Assembly: GCA_021767785.1 (NCBI GenBank)
Contig: JAASSR010000003.1
Coordinates: 1 to 64,000, forward strand
Direction: 5' to 3'
Source of the DNA: Methanolobus sp.
Lineage (GTDB): Archaea > Halobacteriota > Methanosarcinia > Methanosarcinales > Methanosarcinaceae
Length of the DNA: 64,000 bases
Numbering within the stretch: the first letter of the stretch is position 1; each line of letters opens with the position of its first letter. Below the pieces are notes generated by a model. It searched no databases. It was not told the origin of the DNA and worked only from the letters and a program-made list of their open reading frames with translations. The position numbers and the translations under genes are program-made. Below, one piece after another: positions 16,775-51,380 of this stretch.

Positions 16775-16860
16775 GCGGGAGTAACCAAGCGGCCAACGGT
16801 GGCAGACTCAAGATCTGCTCGCGCAGGCGTTCGGGGGTTCGAATCCCTTCTCCCGCACCA
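16775..16860 (+). tRNA. tRNA-Leu (CAA), with encoded CCA
   Basis: GCGGGAG...CTCCCGC acceptor stem, GCAGA-CTCAAGA-TCTGC anticodon arm (anticodon CAA), long variable arm, GGGTTCGAATCCC T-arm, 3' ACCA. Confidence 0.96.
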
Positions 16861-41003: not shown

Positions 41004-41723
41004 TTAACCTTTTGTTATAAGATCATAACTGACATCAGCTTTCCTTATCTCAGGTACATCGCCCCAGAATCCCATATATTCATTCTGAATAACAATAGCA
41101 CCCTTGATACTATCAACATCTTTCACAACATCAAAAGACCTTTCAACTGCTTCCCTGCCGATATCTGTTGCATTTCCAAGAGCTGTAGCTGCCGCATCAG
41201 CAAGGGAGACATCATCAGAAAACACAACCGCAGCGTCAGCCATCCCGAAACTTATAGAAGGACCGACACTTCCCGATGAAGTACAGATACCTGTAATGGA
41301 ATCACGTGGTTCAATTTCAAAGCCCAGATCTTTCAATGGAGAATTGCCGGCATAGATACCTATTACCACAGGTCGGTCGTTTATGATAGCTATATCGCCA
41401 CCATTATCAACTATAGCAAATTCTGCCCCTGCATCTGCCATTGCTTCCACGGTCAGGGAAGAGATAGTACCTGCAACCGCACTCATGGGACCTATACCCA
41501 TAGTGTTTCCGGCCATGATCATCCTCTTGATAATCTCAGGAAAATCGCCTTTTGAATCGTATGGTTCAAGAGTGCTTCTGAAGAAGGGATCCGAAGAAAT
41601 GTATGATTCCAGTTCCCTTCGATGAAACCTTATGACTTCTTTGGCAAGCTCTATGTATGAAAGCGAGTCCGCCTGGATGGTAACAATGGTCTCTTTCAGC
41701 CTGAAATGCTCTTTCATAGTCAA
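41004..41723 (-). CDS. UPF0280 / COG2122 family protein (homocysteine biosynthesis associated)
   Basis: [50 protein letters not shown]-like [27 protein letters not shown]. Confidence 0.9.
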
Positions 41724-41743: not shown

Positions 41744-42136
41744 TTATCCGTTATTTCCGAGTGAGAGAGCATTGTGCGGACACATTGCAACACATGTTCC
41801 ACACTGAATGCATTTGGTTTCATCCACCTGCAGATTGAACTCATCGTCCAGTGAAAAGACCTTTGTAGGACAAACAGATAGACAGGCTCCGCATTCAACA
41901 CATTCATTCTCATCCCAGTTTATTGGAGTATCCAGCTTTTTGACCACAGCCCCTTTGCTGGTTAAAGATTCGCACATCATCTCAAATTTATCTTCAAGTA
42001 CATCTGCAACGACCTCTCCCCGGGAACGGTCAAAATGTGCCTGGGATATATTAAGCAACACACCTGTCTCAAGTATTGCTTCTGCCATAATTGGTTTTGT
42101 GATAATATCACTGGAAATGTTGATCTTGATCTTCAA
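41744..42136 (-). CDS. NIL domain plus 2x[4Fe-4S] ferredoxin protein
   Basis: N-terminal NIL domain, [16 protein letters not shown] and [16 protein letters not shown]. Confidence 0.93.
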
Positions 42137-42138
42137 AT

Positions 42139-43641
42139 TTATGACCTCCTGCCATATAGTTTACTGATATCATCACTTGTGATAATACCGATCACCTGCT
42201 TATTCTTATCTATAACAGGCATTGCAGAAACCGAATTCTGGTCCATTCTTCTTGCAATAACAGCTACATTTTCATCTGAATTTGCTGTAATGACCTTGCG
42301 TGTCATGATATCTTCAACAAGATCGAACTTGTTCTTAGAAACAGCTTTGGAAATGTCCCATGCAGTAACAATTCCTGCAAGGGTATTATCGCCGTTGATA
42401 ACAGGAAGATGATTAAAAGCAGTATCCATTATTGTCCTTGCAGCATCATACACACTGGCATCCTTTCCGATAGTTACCACACTCACGGCCATGATATCGG
42501 AAACAAGGGCTATTCCTTCAGTTTGTTTCATGGGCTTTGCAGATATGCCTTTGGGTACCTTTTCAACAGGCATGGAAACAAAGAAATCACCCTTTGATAT
42601 CCAGTTTTTAAGTTCTTTTGCAATGGCCCTTGATTTCTTAAAACTGGAAAGCGAAGATGTAGGTACATCATTTCCATCGATCTCAACAGAACCGCTGCGC
42701 AATTCCTCATAGGTCACCTGACGAAGGGCAGGCCTGTCCCTGCTGGGAATACCATAATCAAGAACATTCGTTGTTACTCCCGCATCACTGACAGCTGTGG
42801 CCTGTGCTATCTGTTCGTTGAGTACAGGGATAGGAACTCCCATTCCCACATAGAGAGACGTTCCGTAACCTGTGAAATTAGCTGCCCTTATGTAATCTGA
42901 ACTCATCTGTTTTAGATCACCCTGTACCATCAGGGTTCCAAAACCACCACCAGATGAATGCTGAGTTCCCTCACCTACTATATAGCCCTGAGCACCTCCA
43001 AGGAATATCCTTGTTCCGGTACCTATAGTTGTATAATCAGGATCGTTGGAAAGGGGCGAAAGGACACCTGCTCCGGAATAGGTCACATTACCCAGGGACG
43101 GAAGGAGGGTTCCCATATAAGTGTACAATGTATTCTTAGTGCTGTTGGTAGCTGCATTGTATTTCTGATACGCATTGCGCGGATTCATCATAACAGCCTG
43201 GTTCATGTCCTCAAGTGTAAGGTTCGTGTCAAGTACTTTACGGGGATAACAATCGGTTCCATGAGATGTAGCATGAAGATGAACGGACTTACCCCTGATC
43301 AGGTCCTCAATGACATGGGCACCGCCATATTCCATCTCCAGGGACTCGGATAATTGTGTGGCACCTATGAAAGCATCAACTGCAGCAACACCCGTGTAAG
43401 CTTCAACGTCATTCAAAAATATTTTCTGCATCTTAATAGGAGGTTCCGAATGACCAAAGTTCAACCAGACACCCGAGGAACACATGGCTCCAAAGGTACC
43501 TGTAGTTACCACATCAACTTCCTTTGCTGCACCGTCTGCTCCAAGTTCATCGACAATATGAACCATCTCTTCGGCAGTAACTACATTGACACTTCCATCT
43601 TTAATTCTACCGTTGATTTCATGAATTGTTTTTTTGACCAT
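42139..43641 (-). CDS. DUF39 (COG1900) homocysteine biosynthesis protein with C-terminal CBS pair
   Basis: TTGTFGAMCSSGVWLNFGHSEPPIKM, FLGGAQGYIVGEGTQHSSGGGFGTLMVQGDLKQM; two CBS repeats. Confidence 0.93.
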   Translation of the reverse strand: MVKKTIHEINGRIKDGSVNVVTAEEMVHIVDELGADGAAKEVDVVTTGTFGAMCSSGVWLNFGHSEPPIKMQKIFLNDVEAYTGVAAVDAFIGATQLSESLEMEYGGAHVIEDLIRGKSVHLHATSHGTDCYPRKVLDTNLTLEDMNQAVMMNPRNAYQKYNAATNSTKNTLYTYMGTLLPSLGNVTYSGAGVLSPLSNDPDYTTIGTGTRIFLGGAQGYIVGEGTQHSSGGGFGTLMVQGDLKQMSSDYIRAANFTGYGTSLYVGMGVPIPVLNEQIAQATAVSDAGVTTNVLDYGIPSRDRPALRQVTYEELRSGSVEIDGNDVPTSSLSSFKKSRAIAKELKNWISKGDFFVSMPVEKVPKGISAKPMKQTEGIALVSDIMAVSVVTIGKDASVYDAARTIMDTAFNHLPVINGDNTLAGIVTAWDISKAVSKNKFDLVEDIMTRKVITANSDENVAVIARRMDQNSVSAMPVIDKNKQVIGIITSDDISKLYGRRS

Positions 43642-43904
43642 TCGACATACCTCTTAGACCACAAAAGTAATTTTTAGGCTTCTATATATTACTTATGGTA
43701 ATTTGTGTTTGGAAAAATATACCGGAACAATAAACAAAGACCAATTTATACCTGCAACTCTTTATTAAAGTTGTCATTCAAAATTATCATAACAACACGC
43801 TAATTCTTCATCATATCATCCCAGCACCAGACTGGTTCTTTAGAGCTCCCACGAAAAAAATCAAATCAAAAATCTTATATCCATGTTCTTCACTATATAA
43901 AGTG

Positions 43905-44060
43905 AATCAAACGTGGGGGTGGTCTCATATGAGGCAGGCAGTGCTCCCTGACAAATGCTCATGGAGTTCTGCCTGCTTCTCCCCCTGAACACATGGGAAA
44001 ATGAGATAGTGGATTGAACAGCATTTCCACCCCCACTCCTGATTCCTCTGCTATTTTTAT
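43905..44060 (+). ncRNA. Candidate structured, pseudoknotted non-coding RNA (family unknown; strand tentative)
   Basis: P1 GTGGGGGTGG 43913-43922 / CCACCCCCAC 44027-44036; P2 TCTCAT 43923-43928 / ATGAGA 44001-44006; P3 GAGGCAGGCAG 43931-43941 / CTGCCTGCTTC 43969-43979 (one G-U); P3b CTCC 43944-43947 / GGAG 43963-43966; pseudoknot AAATGCT 43953-43959 / AGCATTT 44020-44026. TATA-like at 43875-43880 and 43894-43900; CTATTTTTATA after the element. Confidence 0.7.
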
Positions 44061-44178
44061 ATACCTAAGGGTTTATATGCATAAAATATGCTCTTTAACA
44101 GAGCACAGAAGTAAAAAGCAGGATCAATATGGAGAAACTTTTTTTGTTAACAAATTGAACCGGAAAACTGTATTAATG

Positions 44179-49847: not shown

Positions 49848-50228
49848 TGAGAGAGGAAGGACGGCTGCCGGGTCATTTGGCCTGAGGAAAGTCTCCCCAC
49901 CTTCTAAACACACGAATACCTGTAAAGGGTATCGGGCGAGAGCCCGGGCAGTTGCATTGCAACTCATGCGCAAAGCGCATGCTGGCACAGAAACGATACC
50001 GTACCATGTCAATGCTGTGATACTGAAAAGTTGAGGTCGCATGGATCACGGATGGAACGGCGAATCCTCGTGGGTGCAAGTCGGAAGTAGGGGTTCAATG
50101 GTTGTTTAGACCATTCCCGAAGTTTATTGGCGCGTAGCCGAATGCCGTCAATGCAGCTCTTATGAGCGCGTCATCCTGTCTGTCGGGATGAATGTATTGC
50201 ATTAACAGAAGGGAGCTTACTCTCCTCA
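49848..50228 (+). ncRNA. rnpB: RNase P RNA (archaeal, type A-like)
   Basis: GAGGAAAGTCTCCCCACC (CR-I), ACAGAAACGATACC, GGATGGAACGGCGAATCCTCGTGGGTGCAAGTCGGAAGTAGG (CR-IV region), ACAGAAGGGAGCTTACTCTCCTC (CR-V and P1). Ends approximate. Confidence 0.93.
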
Positions 50229-51380
50229 CTCATTATAATCATTTTTTTTGAGCCATGCGAGCTTGAAATTATATACGATCCATTTTATCAGATCCTTATA
50301 GGTCTTTTTAAATGCTACAACATCAAAGAAACTATCCAGAATTTCTGTATCGTTTATAAAAGCGTTGAAGGACCTTTCAGGAAAATAATGCATTATTTTG
50401 GAGAAGAACAGTGAATATCTAAGGTGCTCACCGAATTCAGAATTACATCTTTTTTTATAATCTTCAAGTTCTGATAGGTCTGATCTTTTTCCGATAAGCT
50501 CTGCAATAACATCTGATGCAAGTTGCCCTGATCTGATGGCATAAGCAAGTCCCTCACCTGTAAATGCATCAACAAATCCTGCTGCATCCCCACTTAGCAA
50601 TATTCTTCCCCTTAGAATTTCTCTTTTATATCCACCACAGGGTATTACATGACCATTAAGTTTATGTTCTCCTGTAAACCCATTGAAACGAAGATAATCC
50701 TTCACAGCTTTTTTGGGATTATCAAGATGATCTGCCATAACACTTCCAGCACCCACTGAGTAATAACCTCTGTGCGGAAAAATCCAACCATAACCTGCTC
50801 CTGAAACACCAAACTGCATTTCAATTATATTTTTCAGATATTGATCTATTTTTTCATCATTTTCTTCAATCTCTGTTACAAGACATACACCATACTCTTC
50901 CTTTCCATCTGGTCGTCTTACCAGATGTTTTAAACTTCCCTGGGAACCTGTGGCAATGATCACAAACCTTGATCTATAAACTGTATTTCTGCTTTTTACA
51001 CAAACATAAGCCTTTTTTTGTGTGATATCCGTGACCTTTTCATTCAAACGAAAATCAATACCTGTCTCTCTGGCTTTTTCCAGAAGATAGCTGTCAAATA
51101 TACTTCTTGTAACGATAACAGACAGACGTTGATCTTTGTAATGATCTATACTATTATCATGGAACCGAATTCTTCCCCCGAAAATCTCTTTTTCGATCAT
51201 ACTTTCTGGCAGTTCAAAATCAAGATAGGAGATTGCATGTTCGGATAATGCTCCTCCACATGGTTTGTACCTGGGAAAATCCTCTTTTTCAAGCAGGAGC
51301 GTTTTCAGTCCTTTAATTCCGGCTATCCTTCCGGCAGACGAACCTGAAGGTCCGCCTCCGACTATTATAAGGTCATACAT
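50226..51380 (-). CDS. Geranylgeranyl reductase-family FAD oxidoreductase
   Basis: YDLIIVGGGPSGSSAGRIAGIKGLKTLLLEKEDFPRYKPCGGALS, GYGWIFPHRGYYSVGAG, LLSGDAAGFVDAFTGEGLAYAIRSGQLA. Confidence 0.92.
   Translation of the reverse strand: MYDLIIVGGGPSGSSAGRIAGIKGLKTLLLEKEDFPRYKPCGGALSEHAISYLDFELPESMIEKEIFGGRIRFHDNSIDHYKDQRLSVIVTRSIFDSYLLEKARETGIDFRLNEKVTDITQKKAYVCVKSRNTVYRSRFVIIATGSQGSLKHLVRRPDGKEEYGVCLVTEIEENDEKIDQYLKNIIEMQFGVSGAGYGWIFPHRGYYSVGAGSVMADHLDNPKKAVKDYLRFNGFTGEHKLNGHVIPCGGYKREILRGRILLSGDAAGFVDAFTGEGLAYAIRSGQLASDVIAELIGKRSDLSELEDYKKRCNSEFGEHLRYSLFFSKIMHYFPERSFNAFINDTEILDSFFDVVAFKKTYKDLIKWIVYNFKLAWLKKNDYNE

Follow-up and report, generated by a model that had tools for sequence, protein, structure and literature searches.

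Pairing with mRNAs has precedent among the small RNAs of methanogens (PMC5867862). The Methanosarcina mazei RNA sRNA154 is reported to have a stable structure and to contact mRNAs through two loops (PMC5867862), and sRNA154, sRNA162 and sRNA41 are all stand-alone intergenic small RNAs. Within the genus Methanolobus, 195 intergenic sRNAs, some of them cold-induced, have been reported for Methanolobus psychrophilus R15 (PMC5378194). Other stand-alone RNAs of archaea are the box C/D and H/ACA guide RNAs, which are small and have paired ends, and the structured SRP and RNase P RNAs.

Here we describe an intergenic element of a Methanolobus genome, located in the 64,000-nucleotide stretch of DNA that was analysed as a whole (the window). 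As judged from genome comparison, it is a gene that encodes a folded RNA of ~145 nt and had not been catalogued before, which belongs to one branch of Methanolobus and whose fold has been kept by evolution. It comes from the same archaeal family as the M. mazei RNAs and is likewise stand-alone and intergenic. With the R15 sRNAs it shares the genus and the kind of transcript. The reported fold of sRNA154 consists of two stem loops, whereas the Methanolobus RNA is built on a three-way junction; in a model scan that covered other genera of the family, no sign of homology to the M. mazei sRNAs appeared.

Results

The element folds as a compact RNA outside the known families

Over 156 nt, the + strand of the element was predicted to fold with −63 kcal/mol (z = −4.8), and trimming to 145 nt gave z = −5.7 (Table 1); no shuffled sequence folded as well in either case. 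An earlier note on this DNA had judged the helices to be beyond chance and had described a compact structured RNA belonging to no known family, and both statements hold, the second being strongly supported across 13 genomes. The P1, P2 and P3 pairings that it drew are present as given in Table 1, as are P3b (43944-43947/43963-43966) and a 7-nt complementarity between 43953-43959 and 44020-44026. It had overlooked two helices, P0 and P4. When the element was scanned against Rfam 15 (RNase P, SRP, tRNA, riboswitches, ribozymes and others), no family reached its gathering score, and none of note appeared at a permissive threshold. Elsewhere in the window, Rfam places a tRNA at 16775-16857 and the RNase P RNA at 49849-50231, so that the latter is a separate locus, as the note had it.

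Comparison supports a consensus architecture of five helices on the + strand, in which P0, P1 and P2 lead to a three-way junction whose other arms are P3 and P4. In the 13-sequence alignment, G-U cells exceed A-C cells (36 vs 10), which favours the + strand as the RNA. The 5′ end would lie at about 43905. None of the short ATG open reading frames inside the RNA is shared among the 13 sequences, and each genome has a single copy.

Table 1. Positions of the RNA, its helices and its putative signals in the window.
Feature	Positions	Strand	Evidence
Putative promoter: TATA-like box CTTATATC (43874-43881) with an A-rich, BRE-like stretch	43865-43881	+	Sequence, spacing in homologues
Structured RNA, covariance-model match (145 nt)	43905-44049	+	Model score 118-122 bits; fold z −5.7; compensatory changes
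P0 5′ strand AATCA, partner 44040-44044 (TGATT)	43905-43909	+	UAUC/GAUA in most homologues
P1 5′ strand GTGGGGGTGG, partner 44027-44036	43913-43922	+	96.8% of cells paired
P2 5′ strand TCTCAT, partner 44001-44006; stacks on P1	43923-43928	+	Both-side changes in 4/6 pairs
P3 5′ strand, partner 43969-43979	43931-43941	+	Both-side changes in 9/12 modelled pairs
Variable P3 apical hairpin	43942-43968	+	Covaries in unguided alignment; absent in G007
P4 hairpin TCCC/GGGA (43980-43983/43995-43998), loop CCTGAACACAT	43980-43998	+	96.2% of cells paired
J2/1, 3′ joining strand with conserved AACAGCAT	44007-44026	+	Unpaired in consensus
P1 3′ strand (44027-44036) and P0 3′ strand (44040-44044)	44027-44044	+	Partners of the 5′ strands
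T-rich stretch TATTTTTA, candidate oligo-T terminator	44052-44059	+	T-rich DNA 3′ of most homologues

The helices are kept in relatives and the proposed pseudoknot is not

The alignment of 13 sequences, one of them decayed (G015), was fitted to the covariance model. Both-side changes were found in 22 of its 36 pairs and 93.5% of cells were paired, a result that none of 500 shuffles equalled; sliding one strand of the alignment lowered the pairing to 43-50%. From an unguided MAFFT alignment, RNAalifold recovered P1, P3 including its apex, and P4; 17 of 29 pairs had compensatory changes. P2 and P0 were not recovered from this alignment, in which the 3′ strand of P2 is misaligned in some rows. 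The copy of G094, a genome of another genus, has P2 wholly swapped for ACCGACG/CGUCGGU and P1 one base shorter on each side, and P1 and P2 are thus strongly supported. The two P1 strands are the most conserved sequence in the RNA although they are paired (identity 0.97 and 0.91). P0 is the weakest helix (82.7% of cells paired), and P4 shows both-side changes in two of its four pairs.

Two segments are conserved without a supported partner within the RNA: the P4 loop (consensus GCUYGAAYAMAU, identity 0.85) and the J2/1 strand, where the motif AACARCAU or a near-variant occurs in most homologues. When the alignment was scanned for further long-range conserved helices, none was judged convincing.

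The earlier note had joined the P3b loop to what is here the J2/1 strand in a pseudoknot. While P1, P2 and P3 are kept in relatives with compensatory changes, the pseudoknot pairs are not: the 7-nt complement exists in the window copy (7/7 pairs), but the other copies can form only 0-5 of the pairs, and G007 has no loop sequence there. Moreover, the energies between P3 loop and strand were no better for a copy's own partner than for species-swapped partners (fraction 0.80). The pseudoknot was thus rejected as a feature of the family. It had been a main reason for likening the element to riboswitches and ribozymes.

The RNA has a putative promoter of its own and varying neighbours

In the window, the TATA-like box is centred 27 nt upstream of the modelled 5′ end. 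This distance is 25-27 nt in 11 of the 13 copies, the spacing expected for an archaeal promoter, and 22-23 nt in the remaining two. Such spacing points to a gene of its own for the RNA.

The window copy lies in the opposite orientation to both of its neighbours, the HcyBio-CBS gene and a convergent histidine kinase gene, and no gene lies on its own strand before the latter. In several other carriers a same-strand gene begins 60-150 nt 3′ of the RNA. These downstream genes vary, encoding an 88-aa protein, a cytochrome-like protein, a rubrerythrin or a YggS-like protein, and several are preceded by a TATA-like box of their own. We found no neighbour gene common to all carriers.

Two features of the surroundings are recorded here in their own right. 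On the − strand of the window, a cluster comprises HcyBio-CBS (42139-43641), a ferredoxin-domain protein (41744-42136) and a third protein that matches nothing in Pfam (41004-41723); the proteins of this cluster were not found around the other RNA copies. The second feature is a conserved peptide of 35 aa (MNN.AIISAKKVGLM...), putatively a membrane peptide, whose gene lies on the opposite strand, divergent from the RNA and about 140-290 nt on its upstream side (loci L037-L042, L045, L046 and L048). Considered as a partner gene it was rejected: it adjoins nine RNA copies, but beside four others it was not found, and it is present too in two genomes devoid of the RNA, G022 and G009. No such gene was found near the window copy.

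Within Methanolobus the RNA is confined to one clade, with signs of decay and loss

BLAST found partial relatives within Methanolobus. With one mismatch allowed, the pattern GTGGGGGTGGTCTCA located 11 true copies within Methanolobus, its three further matches being unrelated DNA. Matches of the exact pattern beyond the genus were inspected and lacked the fold. With a covariance model built from eight copies and then rebuilt from 13, homologues were identified in 12 of the 27 genomes of Methanolobus and also in G094, which belongs to a different genus of the same family. The carriers include the cultured M. vulcani, M. bombayensis and M. profundi, and a MAG. The remaining genomes among the 188 of the order gave no match or only matches with E > 0.001, in large scans that ran Infernal's stricter filters, with which weak relatives can be lost. 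These weak matches (G081, G008, G004 and others) were judged on inspection to be chance; G177 (E 0.005) and G087 (E 0.52) lie outside that inspection. Among further genera of the family that were examined beyond g8, including four genomes of the genus of G036 (E up to 1), the model found no relative. It has no match either in G026, which we take to be M. psychrophilus R15, and the present RNA should therefore not be among the sRNAs of that strain.

In an rpoB′ tree, all Methanolobus carriers fall into a single clade (support 100/99) that comprises 16 species; 12 of these have the RNA, and the members without it are G002, G004, G009 and G022. The copy of G015, the sister of G002, G004 and G009, no longer folds (z +0.7). 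At the syntenic locus of G022, the flanking genes are retained and the stretch holding promoter and RNA is missing. The clade-wise presence, the unfolded copy of G015 and the syntenic absence in G022 fit vertical inheritance with decay and loss. The G015 copy itself (L034 1501-1644; G015:C16:29346-29489) is still recognisable and is a candidate RNA pseudogene. The G094 copy has a different neighbourhood, a few hundred bases from an SRP RNA and a tRNA gene (L033 940-1254), and may be either an old retention or a transfer. A mobile or viral origin was rejected, the RNA having no match among viral contigs, plasmids and phages.

Discussion

Comparison of genomes bears out the existence of the RNA gene and, with it, the strand, the fold and the mode of inheritance of the RNA. 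Among described RNAs, the element matches neither SRP RNA nor RNase P RNA, both of which the Rfam scan detects at other places, the one beside the G094 copy and the other apart in the window. In place of the two-sided pocket of guide RNAs, the present RNA has a three-way junction and a joining strand on one side only. A box C/D guide in particular requires boxes C (RUGAUGA) and D (CUGA), and was rejected since box C is absent from all 13 sequences. We file the RNA as a new family of a known kind, the archaeal stand-alone small RNA. No description of it was found in the open-access literature searched, and a table published elsewhere may list it as a transcript without a name.

The explanation that we place first, with about an even chance of being right, is that of a stand-alone structured sRNA of ~145 nt with its own promoter, carried by one Methanolobus clade and most likely acting in trans by pairing with mRNAs. 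The RNA would be transcribed from its own promoter on the + strand; P0 and P1 would close its ends, and P2, P3 and P4 would meet in the three-way junction to give a stable body. This body would present the P4 loop and the J2/1 strand as the presumed contacts of a trans-acting RNA, and by pairing with mRNAs these segments may alter translation or stability, as reported for sRNA154 and sRNA41 of M. mazei. Action in trans is favoured by the variety of downstream genes and by the window copy, which is followed by no gene of its own orientation. Pairing with mRNA leads only because of the M. mazei precedent (PMC5867862). Across the 27 genomes, sequences complementary to the P4 loop and to J2/1 occurred at near-chance frequency apart from the RNA genes themselves, and gave no convincing target. 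The only site to stand out, which G017 and its sister species G024 share in front of a gene for a MarR-like regulator (L141 and L153, around position 1500), has TTGCATCWGCAA repeats on either side and resembles an operator region, possibly an autoregulatory one.

A close rival, to which we give a good third of the weight, keeps the same stand-alone RNA and makes it a ribonucleoprotein, P1/P2 and the junction binding a protein for which the RNA would be scaffold, decoy or regulator. The part most conserved in sequence is the paired P1, which is a counterpoint to mRNA pairing and would suit protein binding equally; the P4 loop and J2/1, conserved with neither an internal partner nor a convincing mRNA complement, also agree with it. 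Against this, no protein partner is indicated, a neighbour gene common to all carriers is absent, and the archaeal ribonucleoprotein RNAs known in Rfam do not match. A bolder possibility, which we hold to be rather unlikely, is a new functional RNA class, neither known guide nor simple antisense: a lineage-specific ribonucleoprotein or trans-acting sensor built on the P1-P2 rod and the three-way junction, and retained by a single Methanolobus clade and one distant relative.

The other explanations are much less probable. A self-cleaving ribozyme or other catalytic RNA would account for the compact multi-helix fold and the conserved unpaired segments, but no Rfam ribozyme family matches and the pseudoknot is not conserved, and we consider it improbable. 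Hardly better placed, and marginally the worse of the two, is a cis-acting leader (riboswitch or attenuator) of a downstream gene: several carriers do have a same-strand gene 60-150 nt beyond the RNA, but these genes differ, several with their own TATA-like box, and the window has none before the histidine kinase. Since the downstream genes differ, the RNA is not a riboswitch leader. Thus, from the earlier note's list of riboswitch, ribozyme and structured sRNA, the first is contradicted by the context and a stand-alone small RNA fits best. We regard as very improbable an RNA read from the − strand, such as a HcyBio leader; the complement of the element folds well (z −4.4) and is preceded by a TATA-like TATATAAAAA at about 44055-44064, but the conserved promoter spacing and the G-U cells favour the + strand, and other carriers do not have HcyBio as a neighbour. 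Just as little credit goes to a DNA-level element without RNA product, whether inverted repeat, protein-binding site or end of a mobile element. The 19-nt inverted repeat at P1 and its strong conservation would suit such an element, but the compensatory changes across helices, the promoter spacing, the single copy per genome and the lack of viral, plasmid or phage matches speak against it.

Strong comparative structure combined with a clear pattern of retention and loss is rare among archaeal small RNAs. With a consensus, a promoter, cultured carriers and close relatives devoid of the RNA, G022 among them, the function of this Methanolobus RNA is directly testable.
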